Shown here one piece after another: positions 1 through 5,079 of a stretch of 32,410 nt of DNA. Location: contig PLQC01000090.1 in the NCBI GenBank assembly GCA_003159675.1, positions 1 through 32,410 on the forward strand, given 5' to 3'. Position 1 is the stretch's first letter. Every line of letters begins with the position of its first letter. The position numbers and the translations under genes were made by a program. The notes under the pieces were generated by a model. The model did no database searches, was not told the DNA's origin, and was given only the letters and a program-made list of their open reading frames with translations. The DNA is from Limisphaerales bacterium (GTDB taxonomy: Bacteria > Verrucomicrobiota > Verrucomicrobiia > Limisphaerales > BOG-1460).

Positions 1-889
<889 letters not shown>

Positions 890-1106
890 ATTGGTTTTGT
901 ATATCGATGAAACATGGCTAAAAACCGCATAAAAGATTCAATTGACATGATCATTCGGTTTTGTAATGATGGGTGCGGTCAGACTTTCTCACCAACCTTG
1001 GTTTTTTCTGACAGGCCTTCTGGGCGGCCTTGATTTTGTTGGCGGTGTCAAAACCGCCGAGGGAAAATCTGTTCAAACTTAAATCTATTAGCAATGGAGG
1101 AAGCAT

Positions 1107-1260
1107 ATGAAACTTTGCATCAGCGTCGTTGCCACCCTGTTCCTGCTGACCGTGTGGAAGCTGGAGCAATGTCACCACCGGAATAACCATTGTGGGCGCC
1201 AATTATGTGTTCACCAGCACGATGAACGGCAAGGCTGCCTTCTTCCGTCTCGCCCAGTAG
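1107..1260 (+). pseudogene. Frameshifted remnant of a small secreted/beta-rich protein
   Basis: MKLCISVVATLFLLT signal-like start. A shift near 1155 restores GSWSNVTTGITIVGANYVFTSTMNGKAAFFRLAQ-stop at about 1258. Confidence 0.35.
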
Positions 1261-1364
1261 CTACCCATCACCATGAAACACATCTCTGCTTTGCCCATTT
1301 TTGAATCCGATGAAAATTAACAACCAAACCATCAACAAATGAAAGAAGAAAGAAAGACAAACCT

Positions 1365-2480
1365 ATGAAATTCTATTACTTGGACAGCCAGAATAAAACG
1401 TCCGGCCCTGTCAGTTGGGAAGCTCTCCAGGAATTAATTAATCAAGGTGATCTGGATGGAAACCCCATGGTGGTTGAAGAAGGCGGGAGCGAGTGGAAAC
1501 CATTTTCCACCATTGCCGCAAAGACGTCCTCCACACAAACTGCTTCGTCGGCGCGGACCTCAGACGGAGCCGCCGCTCAAGGAGCTGGTGGCGGGTTTAG
1601 ACCGACGTTTTTAGGTGATTTAGTGGCTGGTCCTTTAGGCATCGCCAAAGGATGGTTGAATGAGGATTTTATCAATGCGTCGATCACCTTTTTCAAAAAG
1701 GCAGGTCACTATGCGATTATTGTCGGGGGAGGACTGGGCCTTATCAAATGCATCATTTCCGCCGTAAAAACGAACCAGTTGATACCGGCCCTGGTAGGCA
1801 TTGCCTTTGTGGTTGCCCTGGCAATCTTGCAATTTACTGCGATTGCTTTTTTGGATTCGGGAGACCGCTTGATTGCCAACACTCCGGATCGTGTTTCCTC
1901 AAAGTCCTATCTGGAATGCATCGGCCTGTTCGCCTTATTGGTTGGGATTGGATTCCTGACGGGTGGACTTTTTGTGGGTCTTGAAGTGGGGGGTATGAAT
2001 GGGTTTGTAACAATTATCATCCCGTGCACAATCGTTTTCATCCTGTTGTTATATAAAGCCGCGATTGCTTTCAACCCGCAGACGGTCAATGTCCGCATTG
2101 AAAAAACCAGCGCTGGCGATGAAGCTGTGGGACTTTTAGGTTTTCTACAAAAGTCAGTGCTGAAATTGGTGCCGTCGCTTTTCTTCTTGCTTGCCGTCCT
2201 CGGCGATCTGATGATTCTTTCATCCTTCTTGTCGGCACACCCCCACCCGGCGGATGCGGCGCCCAACCTGGATATGTCAACGGATGCGAGTCAATTTGCT
2301 GGTGGCATGCCGCTAAATCAATTATCCGGCGCCTATCAAATGCTGGCGGGGTATGGCGGAATTTTGCTGGTCTTGTTGGCATGTTTGGTTCCGCTTTTAT
2401 TTTATATTTTATTTCTTCTAGTTAATCTCATTCGGGAAGTCATCCAGTCGATTTTGTCTCTGCAGACAAAATCAAAATAA
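1365..2480 (+). CDS. GYF_2 (DUF4339) domain membrane protein
   Basis: N-terminal MKFYYLDSQNKTSGPVSWEALQELINQGDLDGNPMVVEEGGSEWKPF matches the GYF_2 pattern; followed by several hydrophobic helices. Confidence 0.8.
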   Translation: MKFYYLDSQNKTSGPVSWEALQELINQGDLDGNPMVVEEGGSEWKPFSTIAAKTSSTQTASSARTSDGAAAQGAGGGFRPTFLGDLVAGPLGIAKGWLNEDFINASITFFKKAGHYAIIVGGGLGLIKCIISAVKTNQLIPALVGIAFVVALAILQFTAIAFLDSGDRLIANTPDRVSSKSYLECIGLFALLVGIGFLTGGLFVGLEVGGMNGFVTIIIPCTIVFILLLYKAAIAFNPQTVNVRIEKTSAGDEAVGLLGFLQKSVLKLVPSLFFLLAVLGDLMILSSFLSAHPHPADAAPNLDMSTDASQFAGGMPLNQLSGAYQMLAGYGGILLVLLACLVPLLFYILFLLVNLIREVIQSILSLQTKSK

Positions 2481-2499
2481 ATCAACTGTATAAAAAACT

Positions 2500-4410
2500 A
2501 TGGCCTGGACTCCACCGCCGCCGCCCGGACCGCAGCCTTCCAGAGAACCAATTAGGTCAAACGAGCTGCCGCCGCCACCACCACCTCCATCGGTTGCACA
2601 AAGGCCACCACCACCACCTCCACCATCGGCACTGGTTGCGCGACCCGAACCAATCAAGTCTCAAACACCACCCCCGCCGCCGCCGCCACCAGGAGTTAAT
2701 CCTACTTGGTCGCCGCCGCCGAGTCCACCCGCTGGCGCGGCTGCTCCCCATGTTTCCAATCATATTCCGAATGTGCCAGTTGTCCGCCAACCCATGAGCC
2801 GCAGTGCCAAGCTGGGCTGGGTCACGGCAATCCTTCTTGGTGCGCTGGGATACGGTGGCTACTGGGGCTACCAACATCACAACCGCTACCCCAAAGAAAA
2901 GGAAATCAGGGATTTTGTCGAAAAACAACTGGCAATTCCCGGCCAAAAGGTGGTTGATGTGTCTTCCAAACCCGTTGACTCCGGCAGTTCATCCGGTGGT
3001 TTTAATCTAATCGGTGAATGGCATGGCTTGGGACAGGATGGAATCCCGATGGGAGATATTTTTCAAAACAACAACAATGCTACTGTGCAGATAAACAACG
3101 TACATTTTCAAGGCAGTTACGCCTTGCGGCAAAGCAGTCCTTACTGGGAACTTGACATTAAAGACCTGCATACTGGCAGTTATAATGGAACGACTGTCTC
3201 TGGCAGCATACCTGAAGGAACCATACAGGCAATTTTACAGCCCATCTCGGCGAATTCATTTAAGATAGAATACAACGATACGGGTGATACGCGGCCGACG
3301 AATTTTGACAAAGGTGCGATTGTAATGACGCGCACTGGAACAGCCACGGCTGCTTCCGCCCAAAACAGCACACCCTCAACGCCACCAGCTGGAGTGCAGT
3401 TTGCTTTTACGGCAACCATGGAAATGACCGAAGCCCTCTTCGCCACAATTCCCGTGGAGCGATTTATGCAGCAACAGGGCGCAAACCCGATGGTTTTTCG
3501 CAAGATACAATCAATTCTCAACGGCCCGAATGCTGTGCGCCTGCGTGAAATTTCCGGCGTGTCCGGCCCGGTGACGGACTTCACCGGTAAAACGATTGTC
3601 CGGAAAACTTTTTCTCAGGGACATCGCTACACCAGTTCCGGGATAATCAAGGCCATCCGGCAAGATGGCAAGTGGCAGTTGACGCTGGCTTCCGGTCCCA
3701 ATCCCGACAAGGATGCTCCTGCTTTTGGTTACAGACTATCGGACTTCAAAGGCGAGGTCTTGTCAACCGACCAGCCGGACCAGTTGAAAGAAATCAATGA
3801 TTTGATCAGCGGTGCCAACGACACGTTGAAAAAACTTCAAGAAGCGCAGGAACAGAATCGCCAAGAAATGCTGGCTTCGCAAAACGCGGCTCGACTGGCC
3901 GCCCAACAGGAAGCACAACAAAAACGCGCGGCGGCTGAAGCTGCCCGCCAACAGCCGGCGGCCGGCTCATCGGTCAATACCGCACCGGCTCAAACGCCCG
4001 CCGCTGGAGCTGCTGCCACTACGAACATTAACAATGTTTTGGTATCTTCCGGAACGCCAATTACTGTTACCACGCTAGACACGATTGATACCTCCTCCAG
4101 CCTTCAACCATTTTACCGTGCCACTACCACCAGAGACATCAATCTGTCTAACGGCGCCACCATCCCCACGGGTTCAGACGCGAAGTTAATTATTTTCGCA
4201 AATGGAGCCGCCTATCAAATGCGCCTGGACAGTCTTACAGCCAACGGAAAAAACATCCCCCTGAACACAGATATATTTAACGTTGGCACCGTCGGACAAG
4301 GCTCTTCTCCAGTAAAAATTGGCTTTGGCGGCATATCATTGAACACCGGCAGTTTATTTAAATCGAGCAGTATAAGGCCTGGAAAACTATTCACCTTTCA
4401 CCAGCAATAA
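2500..4410 (+). CDS. Poly-proline N-terminal membrane-anchored protein
   Basis: Long ORF 20 bp after the GYF_2 gene. Residues 4-85 carry P5-P8 tracts including PPPPPPPPGVNPTW; one TM helix KLGWVTAILLGALGYGGYWGY; coiled-coil-like Q/A-rich region; C-terminal beta-rich part. Confidence 0.75.
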   Translation: MAWTPPPPPGPQPSREPIRSNELPPPPPPPSVAQRPPPPPPPSALVARPEPIKSQTPPPPPPPPGVNPTWSPPPSPPAGAAAPHVSNHIPNVPVVRQPMSRSAKLGWVTAILLGALGYGGYWGYQHHNRYPKEKEIRDFVEKQLAIPGQKVVDVSSKPVDSGSSSGGFNLIGEWHGLGQDGIPMGDIFQNNNNATVQINNVHFQGSYALRQSSPYWELDIKDLHTGSYNGTTVSGSIPEGTIQAILQPISANSFKIEYNDTGDTRPTNFDKGAIVMTRTGTATAASAQNSTPSTPPAGVQFAFTATMEMTEALFATIPVERFMQQQGANPMVFRKIQSILNGPNAVRLREISGVSGPVTDFTGKTIVRKTFSQGHRYTSSGIIKAIRQDGKWQLTLASGPNPDKDAPAFGYRLSDFKGEVLSTDQPDQLKEINDLISGANDTLKKLQEAQEQNRQEMLASQNAARLAAQQEAQQKRAAAEAARQQPAAGSSVNTAPAQTPAAGAAATTNINNVLVSSGTPITVTTLDTIDTSSSLQPFYRATTTRDINLSNGATIPTGSDAKLIIFANGAAYQMRLDSLTANGKNIPLNTDIFNVGTVGQGSSPVKIGFGGISLNTGSLFKSSSIRPGKLFTFHQQ

Positions 4411-4550
4411 TGGGTGCAAGGTTTCTGAAACTTATTGCAATGATCCGTCAGGCTCTACCCAGATCGTTCCGGGTTAAAGATTTCACGCCAACGACATGGG
4501 CCCAGGCGAGAGGAAACGAGCAAGCGGTTGAATTGCGCCTCCGGGGTGGA

Positions 4551-4952
4551 TCATTTCAGAAAATCGTCCAACGCATTTTCCAGCTTTTTGAATGTTTCTT
4601 CCAAGCGCAGCACCAGCGGAGACATTTTCTGCCAATCCAAGTCAAACGAATAAGCGTTGCGGAATACATGACGGAATCGCAGGTATTCATTCAACGTGTC
4701 GTGAGGTTCTTCCGACAGCAACGTCGGTCGGTGCGCGGTTGGCGTTTTCATGCGCAGCAAACGTTCACGATGCCAGGCATCGCCGCGCACCGGCTCGCCG
4801 TCCAACACCATCGCCACACGCTTAAAAATATTTTCCACGCCGGTGTAAAATGAATGGAGCAAGGCTGCCAGCGCGGACAGTTCGATTTCAGTCGGAGCCG
4901 TGGCGCGGCATTTGGCGAGGAGTCCGTGAATCCCAGACAACAAACGCTGCAA
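4551..4952 (-). pseudogene. HepT-like ribonuclease toxin family protein, probably degenerate
   Basis: VLDGEPVRGDAWHRERLLRMKTPTAHRP...EYLRFRHVFRNAYSFDLDWQKM resembles the HepT-like family. The only start is a TTG; an in-frame TGA lies just upstream of DKFRKQQATEREQ. Confidence 0.55.
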
Positions 4953-4986
4953 TTGCTCGCGTTCCGTGGCCTGTTGTTTGCGGAAT

Positions 4987-5079
4987 TTATCTCACGCGGA
5001 CGAGTTCATTCTCCGTGCGTAGGTAGCGGGTGAACGGCGTGCTGCGATCCAGGTCAATTAAATCCACCGAACGGCCAAT
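4987..5079 (-). pseudogene. C-terminal fragment of MNT-type nucleotidyltransferase (HepT partner)
   Basis: Minus-strand peptide IGRSVDLIDLDRSTPFTRYLRTENELVRVR-stop, immediately 5' of the HepT-like ORF; an in-frame TAG precedes it. Confidence 0.5.

Follow-up and report, generated by a model that had tools for sequence, protein, structure and literature searches.

Eukaryotic GYF domains bind proline-rich peptides, typically peptides in which PPG is followed by a hydrophobic residue. In bacteria, a GYF domain is found on the cytoplasmic side of the membrane protein GltJ (Adventurous gliding motility protein X) of Myxococcus xanthus; GltJ consists of a Zn-ribbon, the GYF domain and one transmembrane (TM) segment, and its partners are MglA and AglZ. 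For MglA, the partnership with GltJ is described in PMC12288465. Planctomycete GYF-domain proteins are found in GAP1-N2 conflict systems, where, according to PMC7159879, GYF is fused to a TM-rich region and encoded in operons.

The window, i.e., the whole stretch of 32,410 nucleotides analysed here, is an entire contig of a Limisphaerales bacterium. Two of its adjacent genes, termed A and B in the following, code for a membrane protein with a GYF_2 domain and a membrane protein with a poly-Pro tail, respectively, and had been proposed in an initial annotation as a candidate bacterial GYF/ligand pair. Our analysis identifies conserved GYF_2/poly-Pro membrane gene pairs, and to this extent the proposal stands; such pairing is not a property of GYF_2 in general, and the PPG-hydrophobic ligand proposed with it is not shared by these pairs.

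Among solved structures, the GYF domain of GltJ (7z3c) is the best relative of these GYF_2 domains, as a profile built from 15 related GYF domains finds it with an E value of 2.3e-7, followed by Tic56 (2.7e-5) and GIGYF2 (0.014), and Foldseek matches it with a probability of 0.97 (E 0.83). According to Pfam and AlphaFold2, gene A does not have the GltJ-type order of Zn-ribbon, GYF and one TM segment; in contrast to GltJ, it lacks a Zn-ribbon, is predicted to have six helices and lies beside an unrelated gene whose product bears a poly-Pro tail. Some relatives of gene A bear a Zn-ribbon in place of GYF, a feature reminiscent of the Zn-finger in GltJ. SMY2-type GYF domains (Smy2, GIGYF1/2), for which complexes with PPG-hydrophobic peptides exist (3fma, 7rup, 7ruq), share the fold of the GYF_2 domain of gene A (Foldseek probability 0.98-1.0, E > 0.1), and the first strand of this domain keeps the aromatic/Tyr residues, with D7 alignable gap-free with the SMY2-type Asp. 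However, of six groove residues gene A keeps only Y538, and this in the gap-free alignment only, and B shows no conservation of the ligand motif. The GYF-like domain of Tic56 (7vcf) is close in the sequence profile as well, but Tic56 is a subunit of a chloroplast import complex and not part of a separate poly-Pro gene pair. With the GAP1-N2 conflict systems, the A-B pair has in common a bacterial GYF plus TM-rich region in an operon (PMC7159879), whereas the gene lists around A-B contain no GTPase or FNIII component and the passage on the conflict systems describes no poly-Pro partner.

Architecture and Predicted Topology of A and B

The two genes and their parts are located as follows.

1365..2480, + strand: gene A, GYF_2 domain plus six-helix membrane domain, 371 aa (ORF call, Pfam, AlphaFold2)
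1368..1532, + strand: GYF_2 domain of gene A, residues 2-56, predicted cytoplasmic (PF14237, AlphaFold2, Foldseek)
1662..2474, + strand: six predicted membrane helices of gene A, residues 100-370 (AlphaFold2, homologue searches)
2500..4410, + strand: gene B, poly-Pro tail, single TM helix and extracytoplasmic part, 636 aa (ORF call, AlphaFold2)
2500..2754, + strand: poly-Pro tail of gene B, predicted cytoplasmic, residues 1-85, with tracts P5, P7, P7 and P8
2668..2709, + strand: PPPPPPPPGVNPTW, PPG-hydrophobic site of gene B, residues 57-70
2800..2880, + strand: single TM helix of gene B, about residues 101-127 (AlphaFold2, flank charges)
3382..3948, + strand: conserved alpha/beta core and long helix of gene B, about residues 295-483 (AlphaFold2, alignment)

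The first gene had been described as a GYF_2-like domain followed by TM helices, and this holds. Residues 4-51 match Pfam PF14237 (GYF_2) with 33.7 bits, compared with a curated cut-off of 25.8 (E 3.2e-8), and AlphaFold2 gives a confident GYF fold for residues 2-56 (mean pLDDT about 94) within a model of the whole protein, calculated from a 16-sequence alignment, with a mean pLDDT of 84.9. Long helices span residues 100-136, 140-172, 180-207, 211-236, 250-290, and 318-370. Foldseek matches the GYF part to GYF domains of Smy2, GIGYF1/2, GltJ, and Tic56 with probabilities of 0.97-1.0, at E values above 0.1, which are poor because the domain makes up a small fraction of the query. The membrane domain belongs to a family for which there is no Pfam model and which has relatives in other Verrucomicrobiota, Aminicenantes, Desulfovibrio, and others; an N-terminal GYF or Zn-ribbon is present in some of these relatives and absent in others. 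At L170 and L172 (and L167), a Zn-ribbon-like N-terminus with paired CxxC, which recalls the Zn-finger of GltJ, replaces GYF_2 in front of the A-family membrane domain; the L170 protein did not match any Pfam family.

Gene B starts 19 bp after gene A and was likewise found much as first described, i.e., with about 85 proline-rich residues, P5 to P8 tracts, PPPPPPPPGVNPTW and one TM helix, the tracts falling within residues 5-64 and the TM helix corresponding to helix 11-37 of an AlphaFold2 model that begins at residue 91. Residues 295-483, a region common to the Opitutaceae homologues, are modelled with pLDDT values of mostly 80-92. No Pfam family matches gene B above cut-off, and its outside domain, for which the model is only partly confident, has no significant PDB match by structure. 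Initial order-level and DNA-pattern searches for gene B were empty, but a search of the phylum gave distant homologues, and the idea of a lone ORFan was dropped; since relatives exist in family f66 (see below), gene B is considered real. Poly-Pro genes of the window's genome were surveyed by a DNA pattern search and fetched regions, and the outcome speaks against a chance occurrence of the tail. Among 67 matches to (CCN)6, only three other called proteins have P5-P6 runs and no other called protein has seven or more prolines in a run; the gene caller behind this count did not list gene B itself. In the same genome, the protein at L349 (1188-2324) begins with a P6-containing tail followed by a TM segment, and its gene has no adjoining GYF_2 gene.

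It had been suggested that both N-terminal domains could face the same compartment, and the predictions agree with this and not with opposite sides. The number of helices in gene A is even, and positive charges occur in loops 2 and 4 and at the C-terminus, with none in loops 3 and 5. In A relatives of G074 and G023, both from the same order, helices 1 and 2 are separated by an inserted PSCyt1 domain, which binds haem, and this insertion puts loop 1 on the outer and the N-terminus on the inner side. B homologues carry more positive charge before the TM helix than after it, a bias that is less clear-cut in the window's gene B. Helix count, loop charges, position of PSCyt1 and flank charges of B together lead to the prediction that GYF_2 and poly-Pro are both cytoplasmic. 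The A-family proteins with PSCyt1 after helix 1 at L113 (1-1704) and L012 (565-2187) have, instead of GYF_2, a Pro-rich N-terminus in one case and a Zn-ribbon in the other.

Genomic Context of the Window

Two further genes flank the pair.

20-889: integrase ORF, 289 aa, catalytic domain present and most of the N-terminal domain missing (Pfam)
4551-4952, - strand: HepT-like toxin gene (PF20797, E 4.6e-32), just after gene B

A tRNA at positions 1-74 matches Rfam RF00005 and is truncated at its 5' side by the contig end; ARAGORN detected no tRNA. The integrase ORF runs into the tRNA, its C-terminus GGERGIRTPGTAFDRTTV being tRNA sequence read as protein. No second att copy exists within the window, the contig ending inside the tRNA with the other side outside the data. 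The reported integrase next to a tRNA is thus there, by its catalytic domain and the Rfam match, in the form of an N-terminally truncated gene at a tRNA that is cut by the contig end. GC content rises from 0.49-0.54 over the first 5 kb to mostly 0.55-0.61 beyond position 5000. Further along the window, a pectate-lyase-like protein is encoded according to gene list and translations, as are, judged by eye only, Kdp-type transporter genes, enolase and porphyrin genes.

An element may have brought in the A-B pair. The accessory cassette that the initial annotation had suggested is weakly supported, given a truncated integrase, a cut tRNA, the lower GC of positions 1-5000 and no second att copy; the Opitutaceae pairs described below have no tRNA nearby. 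Loss of the integrase N-terminus and the lack of a second att copy in the window also make the integrase a weaker argument for a live element. It would be in line with the truncated integrase, the tRNA at the contig end and the GC step if the pair were carried by, or left over from, a tRNA-integrated element in decay and its genes were non-functional, but neither ORF is interrupted over its 371 or 636 codons and the model of gene A is confident, and we regard such decay as very improbable.

Conserved A-B Pairs in the Opitutaceae

Searching the phylum with gene B minus its tail identified G176 and G185 only, and a search with the membrane part of gene A showed that A adjoins B in G185. In family f66, to which G185 belongs and in which the A-bearing contigs are labelled Opitutaceae or Opitutae, 19 of 150 genomes contain B and 13 contain A. 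Five Opitutaceae genomes (G185, G545, G493, G559, and G594) have A and B adjacent and in the same order, and in all five A has an N-terminal GYF_2 and B a Pro-rich tail. The longest Pro run in B counts 7 (G185), 11 (G545), 9 (G493), and 10 (G559) residues, and 2 in the milder Pro-rich tail of G594. GYF_2-bearing A genes in G517, in G540, and at L265 have no neighbour with a Pro-rich tail.

In G185, known from a single contig (L134, 4405-5534 and 5580-7990), A and B both shift frame inside Pro-rich linkers, near STLNSQLS-type repeat peptides, and might be pseudogenes or contain sequencing errors. Directly upstream of A in G545, a DUF481 gene is encoded (L218 5605-6657, Pfam E 1.6e-27), with a look-alike in G493 (similar short products upstream in L219), which hints at a link to the outer membrane.

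A Second Pair With an Unrelated Partner

Partners are also exchanged. A second B copy in G493, with a Pro-rich tail whose longest run is 4, follows a GYF_2 gene with a DUF4282 membrane part and not the A module. Three more Opitutaceae genomes, G547, G497, and G241, contain a GYF_2-DUF4870-like gene with, directly behind it, the gene of another poly-Pro single-pass protein, which bears no relationship to B and has runs of 9, 10, and 15 prolines, respectively, in the three genomes; these pairs lie at L229 565-2041, L280 183-1659, and L327 1489-3153. The adjacency postulated for the window's pair is therefore conserved in these genomes, five with A-B and three with the unrelated pair, while most GYF_2 genes have no poly-Pro neighbour. 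At L229, the second-type pair lies directly upstream of a GYF-bearing A gene, and at L339 (1399-2145) the tail of a second-partner homologue contains P9 although no GYF_2 gene is located within 1.5 kb.

The pair of G241 came from a DNA pattern search that was blind to GYF and covered 30 poly-CCN loci, one per genome. Only 3 called genes at these loci have an in-frame P6 or longer; two of them look exported or lipoprotein-like, and the third, with the sole cytoplasmic-type tail among them, is the GYF_2-adjacent gene of G241.

Ligand Groove and PPG Motif

The groove of GIGYF2 is formed by Y538, F549, W557, Y562, F563, and L567, with D540 and Q546 nearby (PMC12249416). The human GIGYF2 sequence used for the alignment agrees with the numbering in that paper. 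In the profile alignment, five of the six positions are replaced in the window's gene A (F549 to V, W557 to L, Y562 to D, F563 to L, and L567 to P), while Y538 corresponds to Y5 of gene A in a gap-free strand alignment and to a leucine in the profile alignment. The signature GPF-x4-[M/V/I]-x2-W-x3-GYF is not present in the window's gene A, which reads GPV-SWEA-L-QE-L-INQ-GDL. The same loss of the groove is seen in 12 GYF domains of these loci, position 557 being L or K, whereas 29% of the GYF_2 domains of the order retain W at this position; paired domains are thus no better fitted to canonical binding than unpaired ones. The paired GYF domains have in common that their first strand is rich in Tyr, that GP is present and that residue 44 is a Trp. 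Of the seven B proteins adjoining GYF_2 genes, one has a PPG-hydrophobic motif, namely the window's own, and this motif was rejected as a common ligand motif. The lack of an aromatic ligand pocket, which the first reading had named as a refuting result, thus largely applies.

Association of GYF_2 With Poly-Pro Neighbours

Of 94 genomes from the window's order, 93 have GYF_2, and nearly every tested genome of this order and of the Opitutaceae contains it, at about two to six copies per genome; G074 has 31 matches, where 2 to 10 are typical. An order-wide survey of 100 fetched regions contained 98 GYF_2 genes with 163 non-GYF neighbours. A P5 run occurs in one of these neighbours, which is the window's gene B, compared with 3/649 background genes, and in an Opitutaceae sample 1/26 GYF_2 genes has a poly-Pro neighbour. 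A poly-Pro neighbour is consequently not a general property of GYF_2 genes, and the general enrichment that the initial annotation wanted checked fails in both groups.

Within the families of the partners, the picture is a different one. B-family members with a run of at least seven prolines account for 5/7 of those with a GYF_2 neighbour and 0/12 of those without (p=0.0018, the threshold of 7 having been picked among 4, 5, and 7, with p=0.0063, 0.045, and 0.0018, respectively), and the longest Pro run differs with the presence of a GYF_2 neighbour as well (Mann-Whitney p=0.002). Where B homologues lack a GYF_2 neighbour, their N-terminus is for the most part short and free of poly-Pro, exceptions being G527 and G540 (P5). 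For class-wide homologues of the second partner, runs of at least seven prolines are found in 3/3 with and 1/13 without a GYF_2 neighbour. In the A family, a neighbour with a Pro-rich tail accompanies 8/11 proteins with and 0/33 without an N-terminal GYF_2 (7/9 vs 0/4 inside the Opitutaceae only, p=0.02), according to a table drawn up by visual inspection of gene lists, in which L113 ends at a contig edge; gene starts are those of a simple gene caller. When both partner families are pooled, 8/10 proteins with a GYF_2 neighbour and 1/25 without reach P>=7 (Fisher p=1.6e-5, ignoring relatedness). On the B tree, whose support is weak, the GYF-neighbour label needs four changes, and with one independent contrast on well-supported branches a descent-corrected test could not reach significance. 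The pooled association and the roughly three separate origins of pairing are suggestive.

It is conceivable that A and B are operon partners that touch through their membrane or outside parts, that the tail is a disordered spacer produced by CCN-repeat expansion and that GYF_2 binds something else or nothing. Such a spacer would fit the degenerate groove of GYF_2, tail lengths ranging from 34 to over 220 residues, the many CCN runs in Opitutaceae genomes and the frequency of Pro-rich linkers inside GYF_2 proteins themselves, 6/98 of which contain P5 in the window's order compared with 3/649 background genes. However, of the only three P6+ genes at 30 poly-CCN loci two look exported or lipoprotein-like and the other one adjoins a GYF_2 gene, and long runs track a GYF_2 neighbour in two unrelated families; we consider a spacer rather unlikely. 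Pro-rich linkers following GYF directly, as in the A homologues at L222, L224, L229, and L219, and the A-family protein of G074, which carries a Pro-rich tail itself, might also mean that GYF_2 binds a linker in cis and that the tail of the neighbour competes or regulates, so that no stable A-B complex would be needed. This cis arrangement appears improbable, as the window's gene A has no Pro-rich linker after GYF_2 (residues 55-80 inspected) and as the association with the neighbour would be left unexplained.

Proposed Arrangement and Implications

The explanation that we tentatively prefer, at slightly less than an even chance, is that A and B form a two-protein complex of the inner membrane, with a non-canonical contact between GYF_2 and poly-Pro as the probable link. 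Gene A, with six predicted membrane helices, would hold GYF_2 in the cytoplasm, and gene B would cross the membrane once, with its poly-Pro tail in the cytoplasm and its conserved alpha/beta domain outside. GYF_2 would most likely dock on the tail as a polyproline-II helix, perhaps through several weak simultaneous contacts, using a face other than the canonical groove, and docking would join B and its outside domain to A. Co-occurrence of GYF_2 and poly-Pro in two unrelated partner families counts for this putative docking; loss of the groove, the unconserved PPG motif, the rarity of poly-Pro neighbours and statistics blind to kinship count against it. As a reason for the conserved pairs, direct binding between GYF_2 and poly-Pro is still the most likely one, although we would not quite expect it to prove correct. 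If GltJ, a gliding protein that also bears GYF, is taken as a model, one might guess that A-B serves as an envelope scaffold or sensor.

In the open-access literature, with most subscription papers outside the search, no paper naming a ligand for GYF_2 was found, and the conserved GYF_2/poly-Pro pairs supply a short list of concrete partner peptides. A more far-reaching and rather doubtful idea is that GYF_2 of Verrucomicrobiota represents a class of bacterial poly-proline readers that use a non-eukaryotic surface, and that the operon pairs are a reusable plug-and-socket with which membrane complexes are assembled from unrelated parts. If binding holds, bacterial GYF folds would recognise poly-Pro without the eukaryotic groove, and the pairing would have been reused with different membrane modules.
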